37,716 nt of DNA. Source: a bacterium. Lineage in GTDB: Bacteria; Verrucomicrobiota; Kiritimatiellia; CAIKKV01; CAITUY01. The notes beneath the pieces are model-generated. The model searched no databases and was not told the DNA's origin. It saw nothing but the letters and a program-made list of their open reading frames with translations. A program made the position numbers and the translations under genes. The stretch covers positions 1-37,716 of the forward strand of contig JBAWZF010000026.1 of NCBI GenBank assembly GCA_037143175.1, in the 5' to 3' direction. Each line of letters opens with the position of its first letter. The stretch's first letter is position 1. This document shows, in pieces, positions 12,143 to 28,050 of this stretch.

Positions 12143-13251
12143 CTACACAACCTACCCCCATGACCCATCGCCAACGCTTTGCCGCCTGCCTGGATTATCA
12201 ACCTATGGACCGTCTGCCAGCCTATATTTTCGGCTACTGGGATGAAGCCCTGGCCCGGTGGCAGCAGGAAGGGTTGCCCGCAGGCCAGACGGTGGCGGCG
12301 GCCGTTGGCCTCGATCAGGATTGGGAGGAGGGGATGTGGTCGCTTCACGGTCTCGCCGCGCCCTGGCCCCGCTCGCCGGAACCGGAGCAGATTCTGGAGG
12401 AAACCGCCGAATGGCGGCTGGTGCGGACTTCGCTGGGCGCCGTGGAACGGCGGCCCAAGCTCGGCAGCAGTCTGTGCCAGCACGTGTCGCCAGCGCTGGA
12501 ACCGACCCGGGAATCCTGGAACCGTTTCCGGGGCTTCCTTGACGCGGCAGCCGCCGCGCCACCACCCGTGGGCTGGGAAGCCAGGGCCGATGCCCTGAAC
12601 CGCCGTGATCGTGTCGCCACCTTCATGGCCGGCAGCTTGTATGGCTGGCCGCGCGACTGGATGGGCGTCGAGGGCATCAGTTACCTGATGTATGACGACC
12701 CCGTGCTGTTGGAGGAGATGCTTGATTATCTCTCGAACCATTACATGACGATTTTCCGGCCGATGCTGGAGCGCGTCCAGTTTGACTTCGCCTATATTTT
12801 CGAGGATTGCTGCGGCAAGTCCGGTCCGCTTTTCTCCCCGGCGATGTACCGGCGGCATTTCGACAAGTATTACCGGCGGCTGCTGGAGTTTTATCGCGGC
12901 ATGGGCATCCCGCACATGCTGATTGACAGCGACGGCTGGGTGGACGACCTCGCGCCCTGCTGGGTGGAGTCCGGGTTCGATATCCTTTTCCCGATCGAAG
13001 TCGGCACGTGGGGGGCGGATCCCCGCGCCTTCCGGAAACGGTTCGGCCGCGACCTGAGGTTGATGGGGGGTGTGGACAAGCACGTCATTGCCCGGGGCGA
13101 GGCCGCCATCCGGGCGCACCTTGAGCCCTTGCGTCCCCTGGTGGCGGAAGGCGGCTTCCTGCCGCTCCCCGATCACCGCATCCCCCCGGAAGTCTCACTG
13201 GAGCAGCTTGGAACCTACGTCCGTGTCTTCAAAGAGGTGTTCAATGGTTGA
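12139..13251 (+). CDS. URO-D superfamily protein lacking the HxC metal motif
   Basis: A 370-aa member of the uroporphyrinogen decarboxylase superfamily. It has the family N-terminus (MTHRQRFAACLDYQPMDRLP), the YIFEDCCGKSGPLFSP region and a late LMGGVDKHVI strand. At the position where methyltransferase members have HxC it reads DSDG (Asp263, Asp265), so the zinc-thiolate site is replaced by acidic residues. It may bind a different metal or act on another substrate. Translation is coupled to the nucleoside hydrolase through an ATGA overlap and to the next URO-D gene through an 8-bp overlap. It is not HemE by context: no haem genes are near. Role in nucleoside or sugar metabolism is inferred only from the operon. 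Confidence 0.8.
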   Translation: MTTQPTPMTHRQRFAACLDYQPMDRLPAYIFGYWDEALARWQQEGLPAGQTVAAAVGLDQDWEEGMWSLHGLAAPWPRSPEPEQILEETAEWRLVRTSLGAVERRPKLGSSLCQHVSPALEPTRESWNRFRGFLDAAAAAPPPVGWEARADALNRRDRVATFMAGSLYGWPRDWMGVEGISYLMYDDPVLLEEMLDYLSNHYMTIFRPMLERVQFDFAYIFEDCCGKSGPLFSPAMYRRHFDKYYRRLLEFYRGMGIPHMLIDSDGWVDDLAPCWVESGFDILFPIEVGTWGADPRAFRKRFGRDLRLMGGVDKHVIARGEAAIRAHLEPLRPLVAEGGFLPLPDHRIPPEVSLEQLGTYVRVFKEVFNG

Positions 13252-14299
13252 CTGGGAGAAAAGTCAGGAACGGTTTCGCGCCTTCTGGGAGCGACAACTT
13301 GTTGACCGGCCCGTGGTTCAGGTGTATGCCCCCAAGCGCCCCGGGGTGCCCAAGGGCTGGTGGCGCATCCTGGACGAATCCGTGTGGGCCGATCCGGACC
13401 GTACGGTCGAAGAGATGCGGGCGTTCTTTGATGGAATCCACTTCGCCGGCGATGCCTACCCCATGTGGTACCCCAATCTAGGGCCGGGCGTTCTGACCGC
13501 GTTCCTCGGGAATCGGATCCATTTCGATCCGGAGCACGACACCTCTTGGCAGGATCACACGGTTACCGACCTGAGTTCCTGGCGGCCGCAGTTCGATCAT
13601 CAGAATGCCTACTGGCAGGCGACGCTACACTTGACCGAACGTATCGCCGCCGCTGCCCCCGGCCGGTTCATTGCCGGCATCACCGATCTTGGCATGGGGG
13701 CCGATCTACTGGCGGCGGTGCGCGGGGCGGATGGCCTGTGCATGGATATGATGGACTGTCCGGATGTGGTGCAAGCCCGTTTGAGCGAACTGCGCCAACT
13801 CTGGCAGCAGTGTTACCAGACGCTTTACGACCGGTTGCCGGCGGGTAACGGCTCGAACTGCTGGTTGGCGGCGTGGGCGCCGGGCCGGACCTACCCGTTG
13901 CAGAACGACTTCTCCTGCATGATCTCGCCGGAGATGTACCGCGAGTTTTTCCTGGAGGATCTCGTTGCGCACTGTGACTGGCTCGATTATGCCGTCTATC
14001 ATTTGGACGGGCCGGGGGCGGTGCCGCATCTCGACATGCTGCTTGAAATCCCGAGTCTGCGCGCCATCCAGTGGACGCCCGGCGCCGGGCAGCCGCCCAT
14101 GCCGTACTGGCTGCCCATGCTTCGCCGGATACAGGCGGCGGGAAAGGGGTTGTTCCTGTATACCGGGCCGCAGGAATTAGATGCGCTTATGGACGGGTTG
14201 CGGCCCGAGGGGGTGATACTCAACCTCTGGGCGGGTTCACCCGCCGAAGCGGATGCCCTGGTTGACAAGGTCGCCGCGTGGGGTGTAAAGAGTTGCTGA
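13244..14299 (+). CDS. Divergent URO-D superfamily protein
   Basis: A 351-aa divergent paralogue of the preceding protein. The start is ATG 13244, eight bases inside the upstream gene; the open frame continues further upstream but only as a shadow of that gene. It begins WEKSQERFRAFWERQLVDRP and shows the family pattern of SPEMYREFF and a C-terminal beta-alpha segment GVILNLWAGSPAEADALV. The metal-site position reads HLDG (His253, Asp255): the histidine is kept but the cysteine has become aspartate, which differs from both the HxC and the DxD paralogues. The two neighbouring URO-D proteins could form a heterodimer, since family members are usually dimers, but this is inference. The stop overlaps the kinase start as TGATG. 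Confidence 0.75.
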   Translation: MVDWEKSQERFRAFWERQLVDRPVVQVYAPKRPGVPKGWWRILDESVWADPDRTVEEMRAFFDGIHFAGDAYPMWYPNLGPGVLTAFLGNRIHFDPEHDTSWQDHTVTDLSSWRPQFDHQNAYWQATLHLTERIAAAAPGRFIAGITDLGMGADLLAAVRGADGLCMDMMDCPDVVQARLSELRQLWQQCYQTLYDRLPAGNGSNCWLAAWAPGRTYPLQNDFSCMISPEMYREFFLEDLVAHCDWLDYAVYHLDGPGAVPHLDMLLEIPSLRAIQWTPGAGQPPMPYWLPMLRRIQAAGKGLFLYTGPQELDALMDGLRPEGVILNLWAGSPAEADALVDKVAAWGVKSC

Positions 14300-15180
14300 T
14301 GAAGATCCTCAATTTCGGTTCGCTCAACATTGACCTGGTGTACCGGGTTCCGCACATCGTCAAGCCCGGTGAGACGCTCTCCAGCCTTTCCCTTGCCACA
14401 TTCGCGGGGGGGAAGGGGAATAACCAATCCATTGCGTTGGCCCGGGCCGGTGCCCCGGTCTATCACGCGGGCAGGATTGGCAAGGATGGTGAATGGCTTG
14501 TTGGCATTCTCAAGGCGGCGGGGGCGGATGTTCGTTTTGTGAGGCGGGATTCCGGCCCGACGGGGCATGCCGTGATCCAGGTGGCGGATGGCGGGCAGAA
14601 CTCGATCGTGCTGTTCCCCGGGGCGAACCGGACCATTACCCTGCCGGAGATCCGTCAGACCCTGAAGCATTTCGGGAAGGGGGACATTCTCCTGCTCCAG
14701 AACGAGATCAATGCGATCCCGGATATCATGAAAGCCGCGCACAAGGCCGGGCTGAAGATCTGGTTCAATCCCGCGCCCTTTGATCCCGCGATCCTCACGT
14801 ATCCGTTATCGCTGGTGGATTTGTTCATTGTGAATGAGATCGAGGCGGCCGATCTTTCCGGGGCCAGGGCGGGGAAACCCGCATTGGCCGCCCTGGCGAG
14901 GCGTTTCCCCGGTGCGCAAATCCTCATGACGCTTGGGGCGAAGGGGGCGATGCTCAAGAGCGGGCCGCGGCAATGGGCGGCACCCGCGCCGAAAGTCAAA
15001 TCCGTGGATACCACTGCGGCGGGCGATACCTTTATCGGCTATTATGCCGCGTCATTCATCAAGGGTCTCTCTCCCGAGCAATGTCTTGCCTATGCCTGCA
15101 AGGCCGCGGCGATATCAGTTACCCGAAAAGGCGCCGCGGATTCGATTCCCGGAAAAGAGGAAGTTTTCCTAGGTGAGTAG
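14299..15180 (+). CDS. PfkB/ribokinase-family sugar kinase
   Basis: A 293-aa kinase of the PfkB family. The N-terminus KILNFGSLNIDLVYRV and the substrate loop FAGGKGNNQSIALARAG are ribokinase-like. The C-terminal signature DTTAAGDTFIGYYA carries the anion hole and the catalytic aspartate. I choose ATG 14299, which overlaps the upstream stop as TGATG, over an in-frame GTG at 14278. As the last gene of the nucleoside-hydrolase operon it probably phosphorylates the released ribose, though PfkB enzymes also act on nucleosides and other sugars. It ends directly against a decayed nuclease fragment that continues in the same frame. Confidence 0.88.
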   Translation: MKILNFGSLNIDLVYRVPHIVKPGETLSSLSLATFAGGKGNNQSIALARAGAPVYHAGRIGKDGEWLVGILKAAGADVRFVRRDSGPTGHAVIQVADGGQNSIVLFPGANRTITLPEIRQTLKHFGKGDILLLQNEINAIPDIMKAAHKAGLKIWFNPAPFDPAILTYPLSLVDLFIVNEIEAADLSGARAGKPALAALARRFPGAQILMTLGAKGAMLKSGPRQWAAPAPKVKSVDTTAAGDTFIGYYAASFIKGLSPEQCLAYACKAAAISVTRKGAADSIPGKEEVFLGE

Positions 15181-15390
15181 CGGATTATCTCACCGTACGA
15201 CATTCAACTCAACCGCGAAGCCTTCTATCACTCGGTCTTTTTTGCCGCTCTCCAGGCGGCAGGCGGAGAAATCATCGCCGCATTGCACTCCGACAACCTA
15301 CTTCGCCAAGGCTACGAAGGTCAGGAGGGCCGCGCAGACGCCGTGATCAAGACCCCAAAAACCATCTAAGACATTGAGTGCCATTTGTCG
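15181..15390 (+). pseudogene. PD-(D/E)xK nuclease C-terminal fragment (DUF1703-like)
   Basis: Directly after the kinase stop and in the same frame, about 60 codons read SPYDIQLNREAFYHSVFF, then a GRADAVIKTPKTI segment. These match the C-terminal PD-(D/E)xK domain that follows AAA-ATPase domains in DUF1703-type proteins, where the continuation is normally I-Y-x-x-E-F-K. Here the tyrosine codon is TAA (15367-15369), and DIE follows beyond it. The start, the whole ATPase part and the C-terminal end are missing. It marks the edge of the accessory island and implies past recombination at the operon boundary. Confidence 0.6.
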
Positions 15391-15436
15391 CCAGCTCCCA
15401 TCATCCCGCTTGAACTATTGGCTTCAATTTAGCACC

Positions 15437-18400
15437 ATGCCCACCATGGACATCATTTCGGGAATAAGGGATAATCATAAACGAGGCAAGGTAGGCGATT
15501 TTCTGCGAGAGAAGATCCAGTCCGGGTCAAAATTATCCTTCGTTTCAGCCTATTTCACGATTTACGCCTACGACATGATGCGCTCGCAATTGGAAGCGTC
15601 CGATTCACTGCGGTTCCTGTTCGGTGAACCCCGATTTGTCCGTAATATCGATCCCGACAAAACCGACAAAAAGGCGTTCGATATCGAGGATTCCAAACTT
15701 CAGTTGCAGAAACGGCTGGAACAACGGCGGGTGGCCAAGGACTGTGCCGACTGGATCCGGCGCAAGGTGAATATCCGGTCGGTCCGCTATCCCGGCTTCC
15801 TTCACGGCAAGATGTACCACATGGATAACCATGGTGTGCAGGAGGCGCTACTCGGTAGTTCCAATTTCACGGTCAGTGGCCTGGGGATCGGCAAAGGCGA
15901 GCGCAATAATATCGAGTTGAATCTTGAGGTAAACGATAACCGCGATCGGCGCGACTTGCTCACCTGGTTCGACGAAATCTGGAATGACGAAGCGGTCGTC
16001 GAAGATGTTAAAGCTGAGGTTTTAAGTTACCTTGATCAGCTTTACGCTAATCACTCACCGGAATTCATCTATTTCAAGACGCTTTTCCACCTTTTTGAGG
16101 ATTACCTCAAAGAGGCGGATAAAGGCGGTCTGTTGGATGAGAAAACCGGCTTTTTTGAAACCGATGTGTGGGACATGCTCTATGACTTCCAGAAGGATGG
16201 GGTCAAGGGGGCGATCAATAAAATTATCAAGCATAACGGCTGCATTATTGCCGACAGTGTCGGTCTCGGAAAAACCTTTGAAGCGCTTGCGGTGATCAAA
16301 TATTTTGAATTACTCAATAGCCGGGTTCTCGTGCTCTGTCCCAAGAAGCTGGAGGATAACTGGAATGTCTATCGCGACAATGACCGCCGTAATCCTTTGC
16401 TGAAAGACCGGTTCGCCTACACGGTGATGGCGCATACCGACTTGGGTCTGGCTAAGTTCGATACCCTTAACTGGGGTAATTACGACCTGGTTGTGATTGA
16501 TGAGTCGCATAATTTCAGGAATAACACACGGGGCGCGGTGCAGGACGACGGAACAAAGAAAACAACCCGGTATGAATTCCTGATGGAGCAGATCCTGCGA
16601 AAGGGAATCAAGACCAAGGTGCTATTGCTTTCAGCCACCCCTGTAAACAACAACCTGAAGGATTTGCGCAATCAGTTTTTGTTGATCACACAGGATCAGG
16701 ATACCGCTTTTGTAGAAACACTGAGCATTGGCAGTATCGGCCAGGTTATGCGGAATGCGCAGACCAACTTCACCAACTGGGCCGATACGAAGAAGAATCC
16801 CGGTCGCAAGGTGGCCCGGCTTCTTGAAGTCCTGGACTCCTCGTTTTTCAAGCTTCTGGATGAATTGACCATCGCTCGCTCACGCAAACATATCGTTAGT
16901 TATTACGGAACTAAAGAAATGGGCGAATTTCCCGAGCGACTCAAACCACTCGCCCGGTCGACCGTCATCGATATCAAGGGGTATTTTCCGACTTATGACG
17001 AGTTGGACGAGGCGATATCCGGTTACAAGTTATCTATTTTCAACCCTTCGGCCTACCTCCTTGAGAGTCATCTGAGTAGGTATATGAAGGAGGGCGAACT
17101 CGCCCTTTTTAATGATCAGAAAAAACGTGAGTTCAATCTGATCGGGATGATGCAGGTCAACTACCTGAAGCGGCTTGAGAGTTCAGTCCACAGCTTCGAG
17201 ATATCGATCGATAACACGATCCAGAAGATCAAGACATTGCTTGGCAAGATCGATCATTTTGAGACCAATCTCGAAGAATACACCCAGCCCGATCTGCTTG
17301 ACCAGCAAGAGGACGAGGAAGCCGCGGAACTCCTTGAGAAGTTAACGGTCGGAAAAAAATTGGAATTCAAGCTTGAGCACCTGAAACGAGAGGAATGGAA
17401 GGCGGATCTAAAGCGGGATCTTGCGCAGTTGATCACCATCCATGAGAAGGCGGCGGCGATTACACCCGAGCGCGATGCCAAGTTCCAGGAGTTGAAAACC
17501 TTGATTGCGGCAAAGGTGCGCAGCCCGATCAATGATGCCAATCGAAAGGTGCTTGTGTTTACCGCGTTTTCCGACACCGCCAGTTATCTGTATGAACATC
17601 TGGAAAGTTGGGTGCGGAATGAGCTCGGATTACAGATTGCGCTGGTCTCCGGGTCGGGTGACAATAAAACCACTTTTAAGCTGGCGGGCTTCCAGCATCA
17701 GACCGACTTCATTTCCATCCTCACCAATTTCTCGCCACGCTCCAAGCATCGCGAAAAAATGCCTAACATGCCGCAGGCGGGTGAAATTGATATCCTGATT
17801 GCCACGGACTGCATTTCGGAAGGACAGAACCTGCAGGACTGTGACTATCTGATCAACTACGACATTCACTGGAATCCAGTGCGCATTATTCAGCGCTTTG
17901 GGCGTATTGATCGTCTCGGCAGCACGAACAAGCGGATTCAGCTTGTCAATTTCTGGCCGACCGATGATTTGAACAAATACATTAACCTCAAGGACCGGGT
18001 GGAAGCCCGCATGGCGCTAGTGGATATCGCCGCCACTGGTGCCGATGATTTGCTCAATCCGGATCAGATCAAAGATCTCGTGACAGAAGAGTTGACCTAC
18101 CGTGAGAAACAGCTTCTTCGTCTTAGAGATGAGGTCATTGATCTGGAAGAAATGGACGACAATGTTTCGCTCAGCGAATTTACGCTGGATGATTTCCGTA
18201 TTGAGCTGATGAACTTTTTGGAAGCCAACCGTCAGGCTTTGCGTGATGCGCCATTGGGACTGTATGGATTGGTGCCGACTTTGGATAAAACCAAAGATGC
18301 CGGGCTGTTTGACAAGAACTGGCATGAGATTGTTAAGCCGGGTGTGATTTTCTGTTTACGACATAAAAACCCGCCGCAGGAGAAAACCTCATCCAATGTC

Positions 18401-18748
18401 AACCCGCTGGGTGGCTATTATCTGCTCTATATTCGTGATGACGGAACCGTCCGGTTCACCTTCACCCATGCCAAGAACACCCTGACCCTTTTTCAGAAGC
18501 TCTGTGCCAGTAAAACCGAACCCTATCAGCAACTTTGCGACCTCTTTGACAAAGAAACCGTCCACGGTCAGGATATGGCAAAATATGACGATTTGTTGGG
18601 TAAGTCCGTCAAAAGCATTGCCGGAACATTTAAAAAGCGCCTTGCTGTCGGATTGACCGCTGGGCGAGATTTTGTAATCCCGGATCAAAATGAGCAGGCT
18701 AAAGATGACACGGATTTTGAACTCATAACCTGGTTGGTGATTAAATAA
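15437..18748 (+). CDS. PLD-nuclease/SNF2-type helicase, defence-associated
   Basis: A 1103-aa two-part protein. Residues 1-210 form a phospholipase-D-like nuclease domain with half of an HKD site: HGKMYHMD (His123, Lys125) then LLGSSNFT. Residues about 240-900 form an SF2 helicase of SNF2/HepA type, with Walker A DSVGLGKTF (near 275), DESH (from Asp355), LSATPVNN (near 397) and the motif VI QRFGRIDRLG (from 819). A C-terminal region of about 200 residues has no motif I recognise. The start is ATG 15437 or ATG 15446; the frame is open to a TTG at 15374, which looks non-coding. No clear ribosome binding site is seen. Such helicases accompany Eco57I-type methyltransferases in restriction-like systems; one lies 2.1 kb downstream. 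Probable motor and nuclease of the locus. Confidence 0.85.
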   Translation: MPTMDIISGIRDNHKRGKVGDFLREKIQSGSKLSFVSAYFTIYAYDMMRSQLEASDSLRFLFGEPRFVRNIDPDKTDKKAFDIEDSKLQLQKRLEQRRVAKDCADWIRRKVNIRSVRYPGFLHGKMYHMDNHGVQEALLGSSNFTVSGLGIGKGERNNIELNLEVNDNRDRRDLLTWFDEIWNDEAVVEDVKAEVLSYLDQLYANHSPEFIYFKTLFHLFEDYLKEADKGGLLDEKTGFFETDVWDMLYDFQKDGVKGAINKIIKHNGCIIADSVGLGKTFEALAVIKYFELLNSRVLVLCPKKLEDNWNVYRDNDRRNPLLKDRFAYTVMAHTDLGLAKFDTLNWGNYDLVVIDESHNFRNNTRGAVQDDGTKKTTRYEFLMEQILRKGIKTKVLLLSATPVNNNLKDLRNQFLLITQDQDTAFVETLSIGSIGQVMRNAQTNFTNWADTKKNPGRKVARLLEVLDSSFFKLLDELTIARSRKHIVSYYGTKEMGEFPERLKPLARSTVIDIKGYFPTYDELDEAISGYKLSIFNPSAYLLESHLSRYMKEGELALFNDQKKREFNLIGMMQVNYLKRLESSVHSFEISIDNTIQKIKTLLGKIDHFETNLEEYTQPDLLDQQEDEEAAELLEKLTVGKKLEFKLEHLKREEWKADLKRDLAQLITIHEKAAAITPERDAKFQELKTLIAAKVRSPINDANRKVLVFTAFSDTASYLYEHLESWVRNELGLQIALVSGSGDNKTTFKLAGFQHQTDFISILTNFSPRSKHREKMPNMPQAGEIDILIATDCISEGQNLQDCDYLINYDIHWNPVRIIQRFGRIDRLGSTNKRIQLVNFWPTDDLNKYINLKDRVEARMALVDIAATGADDLLNPDQIKDLVTEELTYREKQLLRLRDEVIDLEEMDDNVSLSEFTLDDFRIELMNFLEANRQALRDAPLGLYGLVPTLDKTKDAGLFDKNWHEIVKPGVIFCLRHKNPPQEKTSSNVNPLGGYYLLYIRDDGTVRFTFTHAKNTLTLFQKLCASKTEPYQQLCDLFDKETVHGQDMAKYDDLLGKSVKSIAGTFKKRLAVGLTAGRDFVIPDQNEQAKDDTDFELITWLVIK

Positions 18749-18772
18749 ATTATGAAGTATGAGTGATGAAGT

Positions 18773-19819
18773 ATGAAGACGCTTGAACAGATACGAGACC
18801 ATCGTCTGCAGATTCCCATGTCAGCTTCATGGTATTTGTCGGATATTGGTAAAGCCCAGGGGTTGCAGGAATTGTTTACTCGGCAATCGCCGCAGAAGTT
18901 GAAGGTGCTTAGGGAACATGCTGTTGCTCAAAGTGTGGTGTCCTCAAATCGGATAGAAGGGGTCACTATTGACGATTCACGGATTGGAACCGTTGTTTTT
19001 GGGCATCCTTCGCTACGGGATCGGGATGAGATTGAGGTGGCCGGTTATCGTGATGCCCTGAATCTTATCCATACGCAAGGCGCTGCACTTCCTGTCAACG
19101 AGGAGACCATTCTGAATCTTCACAAACTGAGTCGTGGAGAAAGTTGGGATGCAGGCCAGTATAAGGATAAGCCGGTAGACATCATTGAGAAATTCGCTGG
19201 TGGTGGGGAGCGAGTTCGGTTTCGAAGTGTGCTTCCAAAAGAGACTCCCGAGTTTACCTGCAAGCTGGTGACCCTGTGGCAGGATCAGAGCCGTGACCAT
19301 GACATCTCGCCCCTCATTGTCATGGCCGCCTTCAATCTGGATTTCCTCTGCATCCATCCGTTTCGCGATGGGAACGGGAGAGTGTCCCGGCTTCTATTGC
19401 TATTGACTGCCTACCATCTGGGGGTTGAGGTGGGGCGGTATGTCAGCCTTGAGCGGATTATTGAAGAGAATAAAGCACGGTATTACGAAACCCTTCAACT
19501 CAGTTCCAAAGGGTGGCATGAGGGAAAGCACGATCCCTGGCCCTATATTGGATACCTGTTGTACATCATCAAGAAGGCTTACGATGAGTTTGAGGAGCGG
19601 GCGGGCCAGATCGCTGCACCTCGTGGTGAAAAGAGTGAGATGGTGCTGAATTGGATCCGGGCTAGACAAGAGCCGTTTCGCTTGGTTGATGTTGAGTCGG
19701 CTTGTCCGGGGGTTGGAAGAGATTGGATTCGCACGCTTTTATTTGAACTCAAGAAAAAGGGGCGGCTTACGTGTTCTGGAAAGGGGCGTGCTGCCCGATG
19801 GAACTATGAAAAAGAATGA
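18773..19819 (+). CDS. Fic-domain AMP transferase, class II
   Basis: A 348-aa Fic/DOC-family protein that transfers AMP or a related group from a nucleotide to a target protein. The catalytic loop HPFRDGNGR (195-203) is complete. The N-terminal SSNRIEG (57-63) fits the inhibitory (S/T)xxxE(G/N) motif, with Glu62 the residue that blocks ATP, so the enzyme is self-restrained (class II). A C-terminal winged-helix-like tail (about 285-345) may bind DNA. The start is ATG 18773, 24 bp after the helicase stop; an 11-bp direct repeat ATGAAGTATGA spans the junction. Fic genes are frequent passengers within restriction loci. The target is unknown; regulation of the island is one option. Confidence 0.9.
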   Translation: MKTLEQIRDHRLQIPMSASWYLSDIGKAQGLQELFTRQSPQKLKVLREHAVAQSVVSSNRIEGVTIDDSRIGTVVFGHPSLRDRDEIEVAGYRDALNLIHTQGAALPVNEETILNLHKLSRGESWDAGQYKDKPVDIIEKFAGGGERVRFRSVLPKETPEFTCKLVTLWQDQSRDHDISPLIVMAAFNLDFLCIHPFRDGNGRVSRLLLLLTAYHLGVEVGRYVSLERIIEENKARYYETLQLSSKGWHEGKHDPWPYIGYLLYIIKKAYDEFEERAGQIAAPRGEKSEMVLNWIRARQEPFRLVDVESACPGVGRDWIRTLLFELKKKGRLTCSGKGRAARWNYEKE

Positions 19820-20175
19820 GTGTACTACACTCTATTGAGTGTATTATTGAGTGTATTGAGTGGTATGGCTTAAGTGAAATGTGTCAGAAAAGACGTAGTA
19901 CCCCTACGTAAGGGTATTCGTAGGGGTATTATCTTGTGCGGGTAATGGGTAATAGGTAGTGGTAATGGGTAATTTATTAGGTAAGGCCTTCAGATTTAGG
20001 CACTTACAAGGAAAGAGTGTAGTACACTTAAAAGAGTGTATTAAAGAGTGTACTGTGTCAGATTTGAGAAGAGGTATTACCCCAAATAAGGGTAATAATG
20101 AGGGTAATATCGTGATTCGAAATAGGTATTACCCAGTCAAGTGGGTAATGAAATAGGTAATTAATTAGGTAACGC
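19818..20175. repeat. Duplicated repeat-rich intergenic region
   Basis: This gap holds two diverged copies of one layout. Copy A (19818-19988) and copy B (20015-20175) each contain, in order: the palindrome GAGTGTA-N-TACACT (19818-19832; 20015-20028), two further GAGTGTA words, GTGTCAG (19881-19887; 20055-20061), a hairpin with a CCCC-containing arm, several GGGTAAT words and a final TTAGGTAA. Hairpins are TACCCCTACG with its complement (19899-19908/19919-19928), TATTACCC (20075-20082/20090-20097) and ATTACCCA (20128-20135/20142-20149). The region separates fic from the coupled regulator-methyltransferase pair, so it may be a multi-site operator, an attenuator or a small RNA source. No convincing gene is seen in it. 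Confidence 0.75.
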
Positions 20176-20179
20176 ATTG

Positions 20180-20869
20180 ATGACCGACCTCAAAACACTA
20201 CTTAAACAGGGCGAAGGCATAGCCGTTGAATTCAAGGTATGCCAGCGGGCACTCAGTCGGGACGTTTATAGTAAAAACCCGGTTATTGCCCATTTTTTCC
20301 AGCAGATCGGGCGGGCGGACGAACTGGGCTCCGGCACGCGCAAGTTAATGAAATACGGGAAACTCTTTGGCGGAAGTGATCCGGAACTGATTGAGGGAGA
20401 TGTTTTCCGGATTATCGTCAAATATCCTGATTTCGACGCCCCGCTGGCGGACCAGACTGTAGTCACCCCGCAAGTCACCCCGCAAGTCACCCCGCAAGTC
20501 AAAAATGATGATAAAGTACTGCATGATAACATCTTCCGTGAACTATCGAAGGAGTTTATGGCGTTAACCGGACAAGTCACCGGACAAGTCACCGGACAAG
20601 TCACCGCGCAAGTCGCCGCGCAAGTTGGTATGATACTCAATACGGTGGCACACGAATCAAATTCCCGGGAGACACTTCAAACAGCAACGGGCATGACAGA
20701 TCGTGAACACTTCCGGAAGGCGTATTTGGAACCTTTACTTTTGGTTGGCTGGATTGAGCGCACCATCCCCGACAAACCCACCAGCCGCCTCCAAAAATAC
20801 CGGCTGACCGCCAAAGGCAAAGCTCTGTTGAAATTCACAACGAAATCACAGGATAAAAAATTATTATGA
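20180..20869 (+). CDS. Internally deleted AlbA/RecG-like regulator with VTPQ repeats
   Basis: A 229-aa protein that reads as the two ends of a normally 450-500-aa Schlafen/AlbA_2-type ATP-binding protein. Residues 1-30 (LLKQGEGIAVEFKV, then RALSRDVY) are the AlbA_2 start. Residue 31 jumps directly to the far C-terminal part (KNPVIAHFF, IGRADELGSGTRKLM). About 300 residues with the nucleic-acid and ATPase-like core are gone, yet the frame is kept. The tail holds the tandem repeats (VTPQ)3 and (VTGQ)n, then a winged-helix-like end. The start is ATG 20180 after AGGTAA. Its stop overlaps the methyltransferase start as ATGA, so it is still translated as a leader. It could be a remnant kept for coupling, or a functional mini-regulator. 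Confidence 0.65.
   Translation: MTDLKTLLKQGEGIAVEFKVCQRALSRDVYSKNPVIAHFFQQIGRADELGSGTRKLMKYGKLFGGSDPELIEGDVFRIIVKYPDFDAPLADQTVVTPQVTPQVTPQVKNDDKVLHDNIFRELSKEFMALTGQVTGQVTGQVTAQVAAQVGMILNTVAHESNSRETLQTATGMTDREHFRKAYLEPLLLVGWIERTIPDKPTSRLQKYRLTAKGKALLKFTTKSQDKKLL
20462..20500 (+). repeat. 12-bp coding tandem repeat (VTPQ)
   Basis: Three near-perfect copies of GTCACCCCGCAA plus a partial fourth encode Val-Thr-Pro-Gln repeats inside the deleted regulator. The lengths can vary by slippage without shifting the frame. Confidence 0.9.
20567..20626 (+). repeat. 12-bp coding tandem repeat (VTGQ/VTAQ)
   Basis: Five units beginning ACCGGACAAGTC and drifting to ACCGCGCAAGTC and GCCGCGCAAGTT encode a second repeat array in the same protein. 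It is related to the array at 20462-20500 by the shared CAAGTC core. Confidence 0.88.
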
Positions 20870-23800
20870 CCAACCTTCGCCAACAATTATCCGGTGCACT
20901 CGCGGCTTTTGCCAAACAATCTGTAGTTGAAGCCGCAACCGCGTTATTTAAGACCCTTGGTTATCATAGCGAAAAAAGGATGGAGTTTTCCGGTCTGCAG
21001 GATTTTCTTGGCGAGATAGACCATGTCGGGAAATATACCAAACTCTTTCCGGATGCGCGCACGTCGGCAGGGCGTGCACCTGTTATGCTGCTACAGTTGA
21101 CCAGCGAGGAAATTGCTTCAGGCTCGGGTGGTCAACTCCTGTTAGTATCGGATAAAAAAGCAGATTTGCGTCTATTCGAGTCTTATCTTTTTCTAGCCAT
21201 TAGTCTGCCTGACCGAGCCTACACACGTGTCGAACTAGCTGACCGCGCTCGTGTCCTGAATGGCCTTTTTCGGCAGCCTGTTCTTATCCTGTTCCGTTAT
21301 TCTGACCTCATTTCCATGGCCATTACCTATCGCCGTGCCCACAAACGCGATCAGTCCCGAGATGTTTTGGATCGTAAGGTGACTCTCATCAAGGATATCA
21401 GTTGCACCCGGCCACATCGCGCGCATCTGGATATTCTCTTGGACTTCAGTCTGTCGAGTCTCTCTACCCCTCAGACGCCCATCAGCACCTTCGCTCAGTT
21501 AGATGACGCTTGGCGTAAGACCCTGAGTACTGAGGCCCTTAACCATCGCTTCTACAAAGAACTGGCTGCCTGGTATTACTGGGCCGTCAACACCATTCGC
21601 CTCCCCATTATCGCCGACTATCTGAAAGAGCGAAAAGATGCTCAGGATGAGAATATTAAACAGTTCACTATCCGACTGTTGTGTCGCACCATTTTTTGTT
21701 GGTTTCTGAAAGAACGAGGACTGATTGATCGACAACTGCTGGAAATTGCCGATGATGCCGGGCAGGATTTGATTCTTGTTCGTCAACCTTTAAAGGGCCA
21801 GAAATTCAGTGACGTCAGTAGTTATTACCGCGGCATTCTTCAGAACGTATTTTTTAACTGCCTCAATACCCCAATGGATCAACGCAGATTGGATGCTAGC
21901 CGCGCGGCCAATGACAAGACAGTTAAAGACCCTAAACTTAAAAAACTCTCATATCGCGGCAAACAACATTTGCCCGATGATTTTGATTACGATCTATTTG
22001 ATCGGATTCCCTACCTAAACGGGGGGCTATTCGATGTGCTGCCGGAAGACAATGCTTCCGACACTATTGATGACGATGTAATTCACGTACCTAATGACTT
22101 GTTCTACGCATCTGAACGGAAGTTCAAGCACGACAAGAAGATACTGGCAGTCAAGGGGCTCAATCGCATTCTTGATGGGTACAAGTTTACCATTGCCGAA
22201 AACACTCCGTTGGAAGAAGAAATTGCGCTGGATCCGGAACTCCTGGGTTTGGTTTTCGAGAATCTGCTGGCCGAAGTGGATACCAGCGATGAAGGCGCGG
22301 CAACCTCTGCCCGTAAGGCATCAGGTTCTTACTATACCCCCCGCCGTGTCATTGACTATATGGTTAATGAGGCACTGCGCCTCCACTTGGAAAATTACAT
22401 TCGAGCCCGTGCCGCTTCGCCGGAGGAGTGCCAGGCCTTGCAGAGTCTCCTCTATCATGACTCCTTTGATTCCAGCCAGAAGCGGTTAGCAGGGTGGATA
22501 GTTGAAGCATTTGATGAAATTCGTATCCTTGACCCTGCTTGCGGATCCGGTGCTTTTCCCATGGGTGCATTACATCGTATGGTCGCCCTCCTGCAACGTG
22601 TGGATCCACAGAATCGCCGCTGGTTACATCGACAAGTGAGTCACATTCCTGACCGCCATCTGCGTGAGACCGCCGAGAAGGAACTGGCCCGACATGCCGA
22701 TGACTATTCCCGCAAGCTAGGGTTGATAAAGAACGCGGTCTATGGTGTGGATATCCAGCCGCTAGCGGTGCTGATTACGAAACTGCGTTTTTTTATTTCA
22801 CTGCTGGTGGATCAAAATATCAACCTGGATAATCCCAAAGGCAATTATGGCCTCACTCCGCTTCCCAATCTGGAAACGAAGGTTCTCTGTGCCAACACGC
22901 TGCGCGAGGTGCAGGTTTCTCTATTTGAACGTGAAGCTATCCGGAAATATCAGTCGGCGCGTGACGAGTATTACCAGCCTGAGACGCAAACTACCCGACG
23001 TGAGGAATTGGCTGATGAAATCGCCGCCGCCTTGAGTGAATTACTGCCGGGATTCTCTAGGGAAGTGACGGGACACGAATATAAGGATAAACGAACTCAG
23101 GATCTCCGCAATCGCGAACTACTTAAGGAATGGTTCCGTCACTCGACTCTGCCTGCACCTTTTTTCAACTTTGCCGTCTTTTTCCCTGAAATCTGTGCCG
23201 ATGCCCCGGGCGCTACGGTTGGTGGTGAAATGCCCCTTGTCAACGATGCCCAAAAACAGCAGGAACTGGTTGTGCCGGGGCGGAAGACCCCCGCCAGCCC
23301 TCGATCTGGCTTCGATATTGTCATTGGAAATCCGCCCTATGGCGGCGACAAAATACCTGATGAGGTCAAGGAGGCATTACATCTGGGCTCCAAGGATCCC
23401 TACGGGGCCTTTATCGCCCGGTTTATGGGTGACGGAAAACAGTCCACGCCCCTGCGTATTGGCGGTGTGCTGAGTTACATCGTGTCCGATACCTTTATGA
23501 CCATCAAGACCCATCGGTCTTTGCGGGAACAGTTAATGGGGTCGCGCATTCACAAGATGATTCGGGTCCACCCGGATACCTTCTCGGCCACGGTCAACAC
23601 CGCCATCATATTGCTTCAAAGAGGTGGCGGGCCGGGAACGACTGCGCCAACGGAAGCAGAATTGACCGAGGCATGGGCCAAAGGGCCATGGTGTCAGATG
23701 GTTGACCTCACCCAAGTCAGTATCAGCGAGCAACATGACCGGTTCTTGAACCTGCTTTTTGAGACTGCAGGCTCCGAGCGCCGACGGGATGTGTCCACAG

Positions 23801-25698
23801 AATCTTGCGCAGTCTATCACTATCCTCAGACGCTGATCGCGAGAAACACGAATTTGCCATTTTTTGTTGCATCGCCAAAATTATTCGAACTAATGAATGA
23901 TACAACAGCTCCCGTGCGCCATGTAAAGCTTGGAGAGGTTGATACTCCGGTCCGCAGTCTTGTATTTAATGGGAGAACCGTACGCCTTGTAAGACTTGGC
24001 GATATTGCGGATGTAAAGCAAGGGTTGGCTACCGGAGACAATGACTCCTATCTCTTTCAGAGCCCTGAGGCCAGAGGCAGTTATAGGTCGATTGACCAAT
24101 ATAAACAGTTCTTGTTAACCGATGCGGATTTGGAACATATCCGATCCGATTCCGACTTGCGTCATGAAGTGAGTCAAAAGGGCATTTCGAAAGAAAACAA
24201 GAGCTCACGTCGGTATTTTGAAGGGCGCTATATTGTTCCATTTGACAAAGGTGGAGAATCAGATGCTGGAGAGGGGTGGACGCCTAATTACTGGGTTCCG
24301 ACTGACTACTTTATTGACTGGAGTGAATTCGCAATTGATAGAATGCGGACACTCACAATAGGTGTTCGTGATGATAACAAGCGTAATGAGCTATGTGCTG
24401 TTATCAGGAATGCCGATGCATATTTCGCGAAGGGTATCACTTACTCGCCAACCGGTATTTATTCGCCAAGTTTTCGACGAAGTTGTTGCGCAATTTTTGG
24501 GAATAAAGGATCTACGATAATCCCTCTATCCACAGATTTAGATACTTCGGCTCTCTTGGGTGTATTGGCCTCAAAAGCGTTTAAGTATTTCCTGAAACCA
24601 TACCGTGCACACACGGTTGAGTCTCCTGAGCAGGGTTTAGTGGATACGCAAATCCCTTTCCCGATCGTGGATGTTCGTGCCCTGGTAGCGAAGGTGATTG
24701 CAAAGCAACGAGCAGATCCGCGGTACGACTATGCGCCTGAAGAACAGTTAGAGATTGATCGGTTGGTTTATGATGCATACGGATTAACTCAAGCTGACAT
24801 TGCTGAGGTCGAAACGTGGTTTGTTCGCCGTTATTCGAGGTTAGCGACCGCCCAGCGTCGAAATTTGCGGGCAGCTGGTAAGGTGCCATACTTTGACCGA
24901 TGGTGTGTGTATTGCGATGAGACTGGCCATTTGGCCTACGATCATGCTCCGGACATGATTCTGGGCGCGTTGCTGGTGCCTCGTGATCGTGTCCGTCCGC
25001 TGACGGTGGCATTGCGTGAGCGTCTTGCTGAGCTTGGCTGGCCCGCTAAGCGGGAGCTCAAGTGGACCAAGGTGTCGCCTGCTGGCCTTAGGTTTTACGA
25101 GGTGGCTTTGGATTTCTTTCTAAACGAACCCGATTTACGGTTCCGAGCGCTCATTTCGCCAAAGCATCCGCCACCGCCAAAATTGCCCGCACCGCCATCT
25201 GGCGCCGCAGATCCCGAATCTGCTGATTGGGAGAAGTACAACAAGGTTTTAGAAGACTCTGCGCCAGCTGTTGTGGACTATATGCAGCGGCACGAAGCCT
25301 GGTACTACGACCGTTATTTCGATCTTTTACGCGAAACACTCATTCCACCAGCAAGACATGCTATTTTTGTGGATGTGAAGGACACGCGCGGTGGAACCAG
25401 GATCAGGGAACTTGAGAACCGGCTGGCCGATGCACATTACGATTGGACGCGCAGTGGAATTGTCGAAGGCGTGTCGCAAATTGCCAGTCACGATGTTCTG
25501 CTTGATCAACTGGTGGATATTCTGCTTGGTTGCGTGGCGTGGATACACAGCCATCCCCAGCGTAATGTCGGGCACCAACCCAGCCCTGCCAAGGCGGCGC
25601 TGGCCTCAAAAGTGAAGGCGATTCTGGATAAAGCGGATACGACTCTAGTGCCGAAAATCGTTGTGGAACGTTCGTTGGAAAGGAATCCAGTGATATGA
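20866..25698 (+). CDS. Eco57I-type adenine methyltransferase fused to a DUF3800-like domain
   Basis: A 1610-aa protein. Residues 1-480 are the N-terminal region seen in type IIG/Eco57I-like enzymes (RVLNGLFRQPVLILFRYSD near 125). The N6-adenine methyltransferase core has motif I ILDPACGSGAF (SAM binding, Asp556) and motif IV NPPYGG (Asn822). A TaqI-C-like target-recognition domain covers about 1030-1290 (GDIADVKQGLATGDND; FAKGITYSPTGIYSP). From about 1338 a second domain starts FDRWCVYCDETGHLAYD and ends SQIASHDVLLDQLVDILLGCVAW. This is the RNase-H-like DUF3800 pattern with its acidic residues. DUF3800 is normally a separate protein; this fusion is unusual. No PD-(D/E)xK site is evident, so cutting may come from DUF3800 or the PLD-helicase. 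Starts by ATGA overlap with the regulator; ends by ATGA overlap with the next gene. Confidence 0.85.
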   Translation: MTNLRQQLSGALAAFAKQSVVEAATALFKTLGYHSEKRMEFSGLQDFLGEIDHVGKYTKLFPDARTSAGRAPVMLLQLTSEEIASGSGGQLLLVSDKKADLRLFESYLFLAISLPDRAYTRVELADRARVLNGLFRQPVLILFRYSDLISMAITYRRAHKRDQSRDVLDRKVTLIKDISCTRPHRAHLDILLDFSLSSLSTPQTPISTFAQLDDAWRKTLSTEALNHRFYKELAAWYYWAVNTIRLPIIADYLKERKDAQDENIKQFTIRLLCRTIFCWFLKERGLIDRQLLEIADDAGQDLILVRQPLKGQKFSDVSSYYRGILQNVFFNCLNTPMDQRRLDASRAANDKTVKDPKLKKLSYRGKQHLPDDFDYDLFDRIPYLNGGLFDVLPEDNASDTIDDDVIHVPNDLFYASERKFKHDKKILAVKGLNRILDGYKFTIAENTPLEEEIALDPELLGLVFENLLAEVDTSDEGAATSARKASGSYYTPRRVIDYMVNEALRLHLENYIRARAASPEECQALQSLLYHDSFDSSQKRLAGWIVEAFDEIRILDPACGSGAFPMGALHRMVALLQRVDPQNRRWLHRQVSHIPDRHLRETAEKELARHADDYSRKLGLIKNAVYGVDIQPLAVLITKLRFFISLLVDQNINLDNPKGNYGLTPLPNLETKVLCANTLREVQVSLFEREAIRKYQSARDEYYQPETQTTRREELADEIAAALSELLPGFSREVTGHEYKDKRTQDLRNRELLKEWFRHSTLPAPFFNFAVFFPEICADAPGATVGGEMPLVNDAQKQQELVVPGRKTPASPRSGFDIVIGNPPYGGDKIPDEVKEALHLGSKDPYGAFIARFMGDGKQSTPLRIGGVLSYIVSDTFMTIKTHRSLREQLMGSRIHKMIRVHPDTFSATVNTAIILLQRGGGPGTTAPTEAELTEAWAKGPWCQMVDLTQVSISEQHDRFLNLLFETAGSERRRDVSTESCAVYHYPQTLIARNTNLPFFVASPKLFELMNDTTAPVRHVKLGEVDTPVRSLVFNGRTVRLVRLGDIADVKQGLATGDNDSYLFQSPEARGSYRSIDQYKQFLLTDADLEHIRSDSDLRHEVSQKGISKENKSSRRYFEGRYIVPFDKGGESDAGEGWTPNYWVPTDYFIDWSEFAIDRMRTLTIGVRDDNKRNELCAVIRNADAYFAKGITYSPTGIYSPSFRRSCCAIFGNKGSTIIPLSTDLDTSALLGVLASKAFKYFLKPYRAHTVESPEQGLVDTQIPFPIVDVRALVAKVIAKQRADPRYDYAPEEQLEIDRLVYDAYGLTQADIAEVETWFVRRYSRLATAQRRNLRAAGKVPYFDRWCVYCDETGHLAYDHAPDMILGALLVPRDRVRPLTVALRERLAELGWPAKRELKWTKVSPAGLRFYEVALDFFLNEPDLRFRALISPKHPPPPKLPAPPSGAADPESADWEKYNKVLEDSAPAVVDYMQRHEAWYYDRYFDLLRETLIPPARHAIFVDVKDTRGGTRIRELENRLADAHYDWTRSGIVEGVSQIASHDVLLDQLVDILLGCVAWIHSHPQRNVGHQPSPAKAALASKVKAILDKADTTLVPKIVVERSLERNPVI

Positions 25699-26195
25699 GC
25701 GGTAACTTGGTTTTTCCGCCGATTCTTCCGGATAATGGTGGTGTCCCAATTGTCGAACCCCAGTCGTTGACGAGATACCAGACTGATTTCCCCGCTGGTG
25801 GTACGCTGCCATCCGTGAGAGGCAAACCGGTTATGGTTCGTCGTGAACCCCACCCTGCGAATCCGGCTCGTGAATACACCTATTGGCATATGGTGACGGA
25901 GGGGGAGGATGAGGACGAACAAAAGCGTACTCCTGACTTGACCAGAATGATAAGGATGCCTTGGGCGAAACCGCTACTGATCAATCATGCCCACACCGCC
26001 GTCAAACGCTGGTGGAATGTGCGTTATGGAATGCGCCACTACTGTATTTGGCATTCGCCAGTAAATTATTTGGTGGTCATAAAAGAACGTTACGAGGGGC
26101 TGTTTCTCGTCACAACTTACTGTCCGATCCCGAAGCGAGCCTTAGGGTTTCACAAGGAATGGGCGATAGCAAAAAAAGCAGGCCGCACCTTTTGA
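25695..26195 (+). CDS. Small protein, possible BECR-fold nuclease
   Basis: A 166-aa protein whose ATG lies in the stop of the methyltransferase gene (ATGA). The core reads RTPDLTRMIRMPWAKPLL, then a histidine-rich turn (INHAHTAVKRWW), then YLVVIKERYEG and FLVTTYCPI. The order basic-PW helix, His turn, paired strands with LVV and a TxYC end resembles phage-type barnase/EndoU/ColicinE5/RelE (BECR) nucleases as I remember them, but I cannot confirm it. If right it would be an RNA- or DNA-cutting effector. Otherwise it is a protein of unknown function co-translated with the methyltransferase. The gene is real: overlap with its neighbour and even amino acid composition support it. Confidence 0.5.
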   Translation: MSGNLVFPPILPDNGGVPIVEPQSLTRYQTDFPAGGTLPSVRGKPVMVRREPHPANPAREYTYWHMVTEGEDEDEQKRTPDLTRMIRMPWAKPLLINHAHTAVKRWWNVRYGMRHYCIWHSPVNYLVVIKERYEGLFLVTTYCPIPKRALGFHKEWAIAKKAGRTF

Positions 26196-26268
26196 CGGGT
26201 ACGGCCCTTGTGCACTGTTCCACGCTTGGTGGCTGTGTCTGGCAATATTGAACGAAATCCGACGGACG

Positions 26269-26700
26269 ATGTCAATACCCGAAGAGAAAAGATTCTGGCT
26301 GATCAAGTTTGCACCCTTTCGTACCGCTTGGGCCGAAATCGTAAAGAGGGGACATTTCACCCTGAGAGGTGTTCGTAGTCCTGCGGCCAGAAACAATCTC
26401 TCGAAAATGCGATTGGGTGATAAGGTACTCTACTACCACAGCCAGGAAGAGTTGGTAGTGGTCGGCGTTATGGAAGTCGCTCGTGAGGCTTACCCTGATC
26501 CTACCTGTACCGATTCACAATGGTTGACTTGTGATTTTGTGCCAATGAAAACGCTGGAACATCCTGTTCCCCTTAGGGCAATCAAGGCAGATCAACGATT
26601 GCAGACACTAGCCGTGGTCCGTCAGCCCCGACTTTCAGTAATGCCTGTAACAGAAGAGCAATTTCAAATTATAGCTGGTGGGATTAAGGGGGGAATCTGA
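26269..26700 (+). CDS. EVE-domain protein (modified-base reader)
   Basis: A 143-aa PUA-like EVE-domain protein. RFWLIKFAPFRTAWAEIVKRG, split by a short charged loop, then VRSPAARNNLSKMRLGDKVLYYHS and VVGVMEVAREAYPDPT are the usual EVE strands and loops; the aromatic pocket for a flipped modified base comes from this region. EVE domains bind modified bases such as 5-hydroxymethylcytosine in DNA or modified RNA bases, and are often paired with nucleases in type IV-like restriction. I place the start at ATG 26269 rather than the TTG at 26248. The stop and the next ATG share one base (TGATG), so it is co-translated with a GIY-YIG nuclease. That points to a two-subunit modification-dependent nuclease. 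Confidence 0.85.
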   Translation: MSIPEEKRFWLIKFAPFRTAWAEIVKRGHFTLRGVRSPAARNNLSKMRLGDKVLYYHSQEELVVVGVMEVAREAYPDPTCTDSQWLTCDFVPMKTLEHPVPLRAIKADQRLQTLAVVRQPRLSVMPVTEEQFQIIAGGIKGGI

Positions 26701-27002
26701 TGAAACGACGCACGCAGTTAGTTTGTCAGCATTTGGAGAACATCTCCAGGCAGGCATTAGAACGGCATCAGGATATTATCGGGCAGTATGCGCGGGGGCG
26801 GCAGGGGATCTATGCGTTATATCGCCGCGGGAAACTCTATTATATCGGTTTGGCGACTAACCTGCGGACTCGCCTGAAACAGCATCTCAAGGATCGGCAT
26901 GGCGGGTCATGGGATCAATTCTCGGTCTACCTGACGGTCGGCGACAATCACCTGCGAAAACTTGAAGCCTTGATGTTACGGACTGTCAAGCCATCCCTGT
27001 AA
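26700..27002 (+). CDS. GIY-YIG nuclease, short form
   Basis: A 100-aa GIY-YIG endonuclease. GIYALYRRGKLYYIGLATNL gives both the GIY and YIG motifs and the expected start of the basic helix; RTRLKQHLKDRHGGSWDQFSVY supplies the arginine and histidine, and KLEALMLRTVKP the metal-binding glutamate. Members I remember with this N-terminus (KRRTQLVCQHLENISR) continue for some 40 residues beyond the glutamate, so this one may be cut short at its C-terminus, but the catalytic residues are all present. It overlaps the EVE gene by one base. Likely the cutting subunit of an EVE/GIY-YIG pair. Confidence 0.85.
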   Translation: MKRRTQLVCQHLENISRQALERHQDIIGQYARGRQGIYALYRRGKLYYIGLATNLRTRLKQHLKDRHGGSWDQFSVYLTVGDNHLRKLEALMLRTVKPSL

Positions 27003-27015
27003 TGGCTGGATCTTC

Positions 27016-27044
27016 TTGACAGCGTCCAGCATTGATAATACTAC
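27016..27044 (+). promoter_or_regulatory. Candidate promoter for the aldo/keto reductase
   Basis: TTGACA at 27016-27021 is followed after 17 bases by TACTAC (27039-27044); TAATAC at 27036-27041 is a closer -10 match with a shorter spacer. It lies in the only gap between the island and the reductase, so it probably marks the end of the island transcription unit. Confidence 0.45.
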
Positions 27045-27090
27045 CCCATGCACGAATTTCGAACTCACCTAAATATCAAGGAGCATGATG

Positions 27091-28050
27091 ATGAAGATGG
27101 TATCCATTCCGAACACCGGGCTCACCGTATCGCGGATCGCGTACGGCTGCATGAAGCTTGCATCCATTCAGGCGGTGCCGGCCGATTTGCCGAAGGCCGC
27201 TGTCGATGTCTGCGTTGCGGCGTACAATGAAGGCATTAATTTTTTCGATCATGCGGACATTTACGGCCGCGGCAAATGCGAGGAGTTGTTCTCCGGTTTC
27301 TGGAAACAGGTCCCGCGTGATCAGATCATTCTTCAGACAAAATGCGGCATACGGCCCAGGGATACGCCGGAAACGGGGGAGCCCGGTAGATATGACTTCA
27401 GTTTCGAACATATTATCCGGACAGTCGAGGCCAGCCTTTCACGCCTCAAGACTGATTATCTCGACATACTGCTGCTGCATCGTCCGGACGCGCTTGTTTC
27501 GCCCGAGGAAGTTGACCGAGCATTCAATGAGTTGCATGGTGCGGGAAAAGTGCGCTATTTCGGCATCAGCAATCACAACGTTCTGCAGATCGAACTCCTC
27601 CGTAAATTCGTCAAACAGCCGCTTGTCACCAATCAGTTGCAGTTGAGCATTCTACATCATTATCTTGTGTCGGAAGGCGTATTGGTGAATGTGGTGGGGA
27701 AACCCTCGGTTCTGGCCTCGGGGACGCTCGATTATTGTAGGCTTCATGGAATTTCAGTTCAGGCGTGGAGTCCAGTCGCCCGCGGTATTCCGCTCAATCC
27801 GCCAGCGGAGGCGCCGCAACATCTGAAGGACCTGGCCGCTTACGTAAAGAGGCTCGCGGACGGAAAGGGAACCACTCCCGAGGCGATCCTCCTGGCCTGG
27901 ATACTCAGGCATCCGGCGAATATCATCCCCATCATCGGAACGGTCAATGTTGCACACATCAAAGGAAGTATACAGGCCGACAAGGTTTCTCTCACCCGCG
28001 AAGAGTGGTATCGCATGCTTGAGTTTGCCCGCGGAGAAAGCGTTCCGTAA
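27091..28050 (+). CDS. Aldo/keto reductase
   Basis: A 319-aa NADPH-dependent oxidoreductase of the aldo/keto reductase superfamily. The catalytic tetrad is visible: Asp53 and Tyr58 in FDHADIYG, Lys84 in LQTKCGI and His130 in LLLHRPD. RYFGISNHN and the C-terminal IIPIIGTVNVAHI cofactor segment agree. Three ATGs occur in a row (27085, 27088, 27091); AAGGAG at 27078-27083 has the best spacing to 27091. It resembles the YdhF-like oxidoreductase subgroup. Natural substrate unknown; sugar or short-chain carbonyl compounds are common. Followed by a weak hairpin (CCCGCC/GGCGGG, 28079-28093). Confidence 0.92.
   Translation: MKMVSIPNTGLTVSRIAYGCMKLASIQAVPADLPKAAVDVCVAAYNEGINFFDHADIYGRGKCEELFSGFWKQVPRDQIILQTKCGIRPRDTPETGEPGRYDFSFEHIIRTVEASLSRLKTDYLDILLLHRPDALVSPEEVDRAFNELHGAGKVRYFGISNHNVLQIELLRKFVKQPLVTNQLQLSILHHYLVSEGVLVNVVGKPSVLASGTLDYCRLHGISVQAWSPVARGIPLNPPAEAPQHLKDLAAYVKRLADGKGTTPEAILLAWILRHPANIIPIIGTVNVAHIKGSIQADKVSLTREEWYRMLEFARGESVP

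Follow-up and report, generated by a model that had tools for sequence, protein, structure and literature searches.

A DUF3800 domain fused to an Eco57I-type methyltransferase and paired with M04B in a restriction-modification-like operon of Kiritimatiellia

Introduction

What does a DUF3800 domain do when it forms the C-terminal end of a DNA methyltransferase (MTase)? This question is raised by a gene at positions 20866-25698 (+) of contig JBAWZF010000026.1 (GenBank assembly GCA_037143175.1; Verrucomicrobiota, Kiritimatiellia), the whole 37,716 nucleotides of which were analyzed and are hereafter called the window. An earlier note on this DNA had proposed that the domain acts with the MTase, perhaps as its missing nuclease. 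The module itself is already known: it is catalogued by PADLOC as candidate system PDC-M04 (M04A plus M04B), and the domain as DUF3800/NamA/RlfA. Exactly the same two families as the DUF3800 domain and the product of the next gene make up PDC-M04 and the phage P1 pair rlfA-rlfB, but there they are two separate small proteins, whereas in the window M04A forms the C-terminal end of an MTase. Our best explanation, to which we give about an even chance, is that a two-protein accessory module has been captured by a restriction operon, with DUF3800 welded to the MTase, and serves as a second line of defence in the manner of PrrC.

Results

The fusion gene consists of a single open reading frame (ORF) of 1610 codons plus a stop, with no interruption. 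Its first part (20866-24852, residues 1-1329) is an Eco57I-type N6-adenine MTase with a target-recognition region, in which motif I appears as DPACGSG (residues 556-562) and motif IV as NPPY (residues 822-825). It was detected by Pfam Eco57I with 61.1 bits (cut-off 25.3) and by the PADLOC profile REase_MTase_IIG at 9.3e-42, and BrxX/PglX chains in the PDB match the target-recognition region (profile positions ~1134-1248). The second part (24853-25698, residues 1330-1610), read in the same frame, is the RNase H-like DUF3800/PDC-M04A domain, with a YCDE motif at residues 1349-1352. Pfam DUF3800 (residues 1348-1559) scores 21.7 bits here, barely above its cut-off of 21.0, and PADLOC PDC-M04A matches the same C-terminal segment far more clearly (2e-39). 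Since the ATG of this gene overlaps the stop of the preceding gene and its own stop overlaps the start of the M04B gene, translational coupling with both neighbours is suggested.

An AlphaFold2 model of residues 1330-1610 was built with 14 related sequences (predicted local distance difference test (pLDDT) 83.7; predicted template modelling score (pTM) 0.80). Its best Foldseek match in the PDB is RNase HII/H2 (2dff, E 7.7e-5), and in VIA-align ranks 1-17 are all RNase H2/HII/HIII structures, with Z scores of 11.4 (3puf_G) and 11.2 (1eke_B). A sequence search of the PDB found no relative of the domain. Five residues, namely D1351 and E1352 (in YCDE), E1397 (E-KW), D1503 (D-K) and D1551 (Q--D), are unchanged in the alignment of fused proteins, and separate copies conserve them as well. 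D1351-E1352 resembles the D-E pair of RNase HII; all five residues were matched to those of RNase HII by order and secondary structure, without superposition. Moreover, in the close pairs L077/L078 and L089/L090 the ratio of nonsynonymous to synonymous substitution rates amounts to 0.11 and 0.15, respectively, and the domain is therefore under purifying selection and strong constraint. Model and conservation together support the prediction of a metal-dependent, RNase H2-like nuclease with an intact catalytic site. For DUF3800/RlfA such a fold had already been predicted (PMC3710099, PMC10910872, PMC12669027). An Rfam scan returned two tRNAs only and no DUF3800-type RNA motif.

We then searched across the MTase-DUF3800 junction in an independent collection of loci. 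Fourteen loci match from the MTase into DUF3800, 13 of them as one ORF; these 13 come mostly from Verrucomicrobiota, and also from one Leptospiraceae, one Gammaproteobacterium, one Cytophagaceae and one unplaced bacterium. In the fourteenth (L084, on the same contig of genome G015 as L030), the fusion is split exactly inside the MTase tail by an element of ~1.1 kb, an IS630-type insertion bounded by 29-nt inverted ends and encoding a DDE_3 transposase (L030:8222-9342), and this split gene shows the ancestral fused state. Genome searches added two more fusions (L097 in G401 and L137 in G621), giving a total of 17 loci including the window. Full-length identity of the window protein to its fused relatives is 45-66%, and Pfam DUF3800 was found in 12 of the 13 full-length fused proteins (best 6.9e-11). 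Scans with the DUF3800 domain of the window alone gave no matches in genome contigs or viral contigs, while the junction alignment succeeded. An assembly artefact at the junction is rejected, because at least 16 further genomes, belonging to Verrucomicrobiota, Spirochaetota, Bacteroidota and Gammaproteobacteria, carry the same fusion. Thus, the main structural claims of the earlier note, namely an uninterrupted 1610-codon frame with motif I, NPPY and a target-recognition region, an RNase H-like DUF3800 segment at its C-terminus and a true physical link between the two, are all confirmed, by the ORF with its motifs, Pfam and PDB profile matches, by the structural model and by the architecture search, respectively.

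The gene directly downstream encodes M04B in all 17 fused loci (for L085, M04B was scored via L135, which is the same contig), and in most of them it is followed by a gene for an EVE-domain protein. Three sibling loci (L091-L093) have an HKD-Snf2 nuclease-helicase, MTase and EVE genes in the same order, with EVE directly after the MTase, and have neither DUF3800 nor M04B. As both are found in every fused locus and neither in these siblings, DUF3800 and M04B are gained or missing jointly at the site between the end of the MTase and EVE.

In the window, M04B (RlfB family), the obligate partner of DUF3800, occupies 25695-26195 (+) and matches PADLOC PDC-M04B at 2.3e-27; it also matches phrog_16230, a 'replication protein', at 3e-14. 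Its AlphaFold2 model has a pLDDT of 91.7. The VIA list for this model is led by CdiA-CT, colicin D tRNase, HigB, YafQ and RelE (Z 5.6 to 4; the best two 5.6 and 5.2), the top 20 being mostly of the RelE/colicin D fold and unrelated folds reaching ~3. Foldseek gave nothing significant for the model (best E 0.32), and a PDB sequence search found no relative. In a set of 31 diverse sequences, four residues (H65, R78, R84 and T140) never vary. Of these, H65 is part of a helix and T140 belongs to the last strand, sites that, by the general layout of the fold, hold catalytic residues in colicin D and related proteins. It is thus plausible that M04B may be a second RNase. The M04B genes of L077-L090 are of very different types, even where the DUF3800 domains of two loci are near-identical, as if M04B were exchanged or fast-evolving.

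Unfused pairs were examined in 17 M04A loci at E 1e-40 or better, obtained from phylum and class searches. In 13 of the 17, a restriction or nuclease-helicase gene is present within ~7 kb on the same strand. The pair follows an ISP MTase in L035 (MTase-A-B), is embedded in a type III operon in L032 (mod-A-B-res) and in type I operons in L033 and L132 (hsdM-S-A-B-R), and is also found in seven other type I loci (L038, L130, L131, L133, L134, L136 and L139), near an N6/N4 MTase with a helicase (L039) and near an HKD-Snf2 helicase (L031). For comparison, 79 genomes of the phylum contain ~1.9 N6_Mtase genes per ~3 Mb genome, so that less than 1% would be expected by chance for that family. In L032 (4389-10875), DUF3800-M04B lies between mod and res, and in L132 (5921-13157) between hsdS and hsdR with overlapping gene ends. 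Another type I operon contains an ORF of 216 residues (L041:9478-10128) in which the first ~80 residues of M04A run on into the greater part of M04B, and which looks like an internal deletion product. The M04A copies on E. coli plasmids are RlfA of phage P1 and RapA of P7 (99.6% identical); in P1, rlfB comes after rlfA, and the pair is located at 51740-52908 of NC_005856 (L148:3501-4669) under a C1-controlled operator.

Phylogenetic analysis of DUF3800 requires three changes between the fused and separate states, at least two of which are forced by strongly supported branches. The window copy groups with those of L077 and L078 and with the unfused copy of L142 (support 100/100), while the remaining 13 fused copies fall elsewhere; L142 has a window-type DUF3800-M04B pair, unfused, behind a different MTase. 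In the MTase tree the fused enzymes stay close, and a single origin of the fusion is still compatible with it. M04B is reshuffled even more: between L077 and the window, DUF3800 is 72% identical and M04B only 35%. The DUF3800-M04B cassette moves among MTases.

The genes around the fusion were also annotated, all on the + strand. The first of them (15374-18748) encodes an HKD (PLD-like) nuclease with a Snf2 helicase (PADLOC C3a139 HKD+Snf2, 3.3e-125; Pfam PLDc_2, SNF2-rel_dom and Helicase_C), and a gene of this type sits 5' of the fusion in most fused loci. Because its HxKx4D, Walker A and DESH motifs are all intact (HGKMYHMD at residue 144, GLGKT at 297 and DESH at 376), the operon already has both a nuclease and a motor, and the protein was assigned as the putative restriction motor and nuclease of the locus. 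It is followed by two accessory genes. One, at 18773-19819, encodes an optional SoFic-like Fic-domain protein (Pfam Fic, 3.2e-13; PADLOC SoFic, 7.8e-31), and Fic recurs immediately before the MTase in the related HKD-Snf2/MTase loci L101, L102, L105 and L109 (44-73% identical). The other, at 20177-20869, encodes an HATPase_c_4/Fic-like_C protein (Pfam Fic-like_C, 1.7e-21; HATPase_c_4, 4.2e-4), whose N-terminal GEGIAVEFK passes straight into the HATPase part; judging from this sequence, it is probably a shortened AlbA/RecG-like protein, and a similar ORF precedes the MTase in L080. Downstream of M04B are the gene for the EVE-domain protein (26248-26700; Pfam EVE, 9.7e-35), a predicted reader of modified bases, and, at the end of the operon, a short GIY-YIG ORF (26700-27002; Pfam GIY-YIG, 5.2e-6). 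The latter shares 80% identity with the beginning of a 253-residue ORF in L035, which is positioned upstream of another M04A-M04B operon, and it may be truncated. The operon is flanked by genes for a sugar kinase and an aldo-keto reductase and, at a distance, by uroporphyrinogen decarboxylase-like genes (12139-13251 and 36269-37333). Taken together, it is strongly supported that 15374-26700 is a restriction-modification-like defence operon (HKD-Snf2, Eco57I/IIG-like MTase and EVE) that has captured DUF3800 and M04B.

Discussion

The suggestion of the earlier note that DUF3800 supplies a missing nuclease is not supported, and DUF3800 as the sole nuclease is rejected, because HKD-Snf2 is intact and the siblings L091-L093 lack DUF3800. 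What stands is that an RNase H-like domain is physically fused to the MTase and is taken to act with its locus. DUF3800 looks auxiliary rather than the main nuclease, since it comes and goes together with M04B and since the pair also occurs inside complete type I and III operons that have restriction subunits of their own.

The closest functional precedent for such an arrangement is PrrC, which the type Ic enzyme linked to it keeps silent and which becomes active once phage Stp neutralises that enzyme (PMC2610378). In PrrC with EcoprrI (and RloC) a nuclease gene likewise lies within a restriction operon, and there is a physical tie to the enzyme (PMC2610378). PrrC, however, is a HEPN/ABC-ATPase tRNase, whereas the protein described here has an RNase H fold fused to an MTase and an M04B partner; domain scans detected no HEPN nuclease with an ABC ATPase in the fusion or in M04B, so that only the nesting logic is common to both. 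By analogy, M04B would be either a second RNase-like protein or a control protein of DUF3800, and the pair would be silent as long as the MTase/helicase complex is intact and located on properly marked self DNA. When a phage engages or blocks restriction, the pair might be released to cut RNA or RNA-DNA hybrids, providing a second and probably self-harming line, much as PrrC does behind a type I restriction enzyme. Fusion to the MTase would then keep the nuclease under direct control of the MTase, replacing the association of the PrrC type.

Several points weigh against this explanation. Fold, conservation, co-occurrence and gene order were computed, but the silencing and triggering of the pair and its substrate are inferred; the fold does not tell whether DUF3800 acts on RNA, DNA or a hybrid, and M04B matches its fold only weakly, with a Z of 5.6 at best and a Foldseek E of 0.32. 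In addition, four of the 17 strong unfused loci (L034, L036, L037 and L040) lie outside restriction loci, P1 rlfAB is C1-controlled and carries an annotation that points to a possible link with lytic replication, and the literature found reports no activity for any DUF3800 or RlfB protein.

Alternatively, DUF3800 might be a direct restriction effector: the MTase would hold it at unmodified DNA that Snf2 has opened, and there it would join the HKD nuclease in cutting DNA or RNA-DNA hybrids. Such a role would fit its fusion straight to the specificity-bearing MTase, its intact DE/E/D/D site and the existence of DUF3800 proteins as accessories of Cas12a2 and VI-F CRISPR systems (PMC10910872, PMC12669027), which have the same predicted RNase H fold in a defence system, though in a CRISPR context, with a TPR fusion and without an MTase. 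We consider it unlikely, because siblings without DUF3800 retain HKD-Snf2, MTase and EVE, complete type I and III systems have the pair next to an R subunit of their own, and the strict pairing with M04B is left unexplained. It is less probable still that M04A and M04B form an addiction pair of the toxin-antitoxin kind, by which restriction loci and mobile elements are stabilised, with the toxin silenced by its fusion to the MTase. Two overlapping genes moving as a unit, their occurrence in P1, P7 and P1-like plasmids and the toxin-like fold of M04B would agree with this, but catalytic-looking invariant residues in both proteins are unusual for an antitoxin, and the preference for restriction operons suggests coupling rather than mere linkage. 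Finally, a function in nucleic-acid processing (e.g., removal of RNA primers or R-loops) rather than defence, to which the RNase H2-like fold of DUF3800, the position of P1 rlfAB adjoining repL/oriL under C1 control and its designation 'possibly associated with lytic replication' might point, is improbable, as P1 was scored as not requiring rlfA or rlfB (PMC10695390), the region of P1-like plasmids that contains rlfAB is variable (PMC9603915) and the pair is strongly enriched in restriction operons.

The captured module was also compared with described systems. NamA/RlfA was predicted in 2013 to be an RNase H-fold, RNA-cleaving toxin of conflict systems (Biol Direct, PMC3710099); the passages of that account on this family place it near R-M and Pgl genes in operons with HEPN, and describe neither a fusion to an Eco57I-type MTase nor the RlfB/M04B partner. 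Type IIG enzymes and BREX PglX have a related MTase core and target-recognition domain, but the scores obtained here are far below the PglX cut-offs and the appended domain is a C-terminal RNase H fold. In type IIG enzymes, the endonuclease domain is part of the MTase chain, normally as PD-(D/E)XK at the N-terminus, and a Pfam scan of the 13 fused members detected no restriction endonuclease domain in any of them. BREX was rejected, with PglX at 76.4 bits against a cut-off of 500 and no PglZ or BrxC among the nine proteins of 14278-28050. DISARM was likewise rejected: DrmD scores 154.6 bits against a cut-off of 610, the sole DrmA-type match is a cross-match of the same helicase, and DrmB is absent from the matches listed. 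Type-2 BREX-Related (NAR 2026, PMC12839542) and COG1743-DUF499-SNF2-EVE (PMC7641849) systems both include an HKD-Snf2 helicase and an N6-MTase, and the latter also EVE; Pfam, NCBIfam and PADLOC scans found neither the DUF499 ATPase nor DUF3780 in the operon, and membership in Type-2 BREX-Related was rejected for lack of these two. A literature search found no paper naming PDC-M04, nor, with subscription titles outside its coverage, any description of a fusion with the MTase, of the pair lying within type III or ISP operons or of M04B as RelE/colicin D-like.

These results link an orphan family of RNase H-like proteins, along with its unnamed partner, to restriction-modification both physically and by gene order. 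More tentatively, type I, III, ISP and IIG-like (HKD-Snf2/EVE) systems may share a mobile two-nuclease module, made up of an RNase H2-like DUF3800 and a RelE/colicin D-like M04B, that senses the failure or firing of restriction and then attacks RNA, with one lineage having fused the first nuclease to its MTase and P1 rlfAB being the same pair. This gives a testable function to two long-uncharacterised P1 genes, rlfA and rlfB, and, if true, the PrrC principle of a backup nuclease controlled by restriction would extend to several restriction types.

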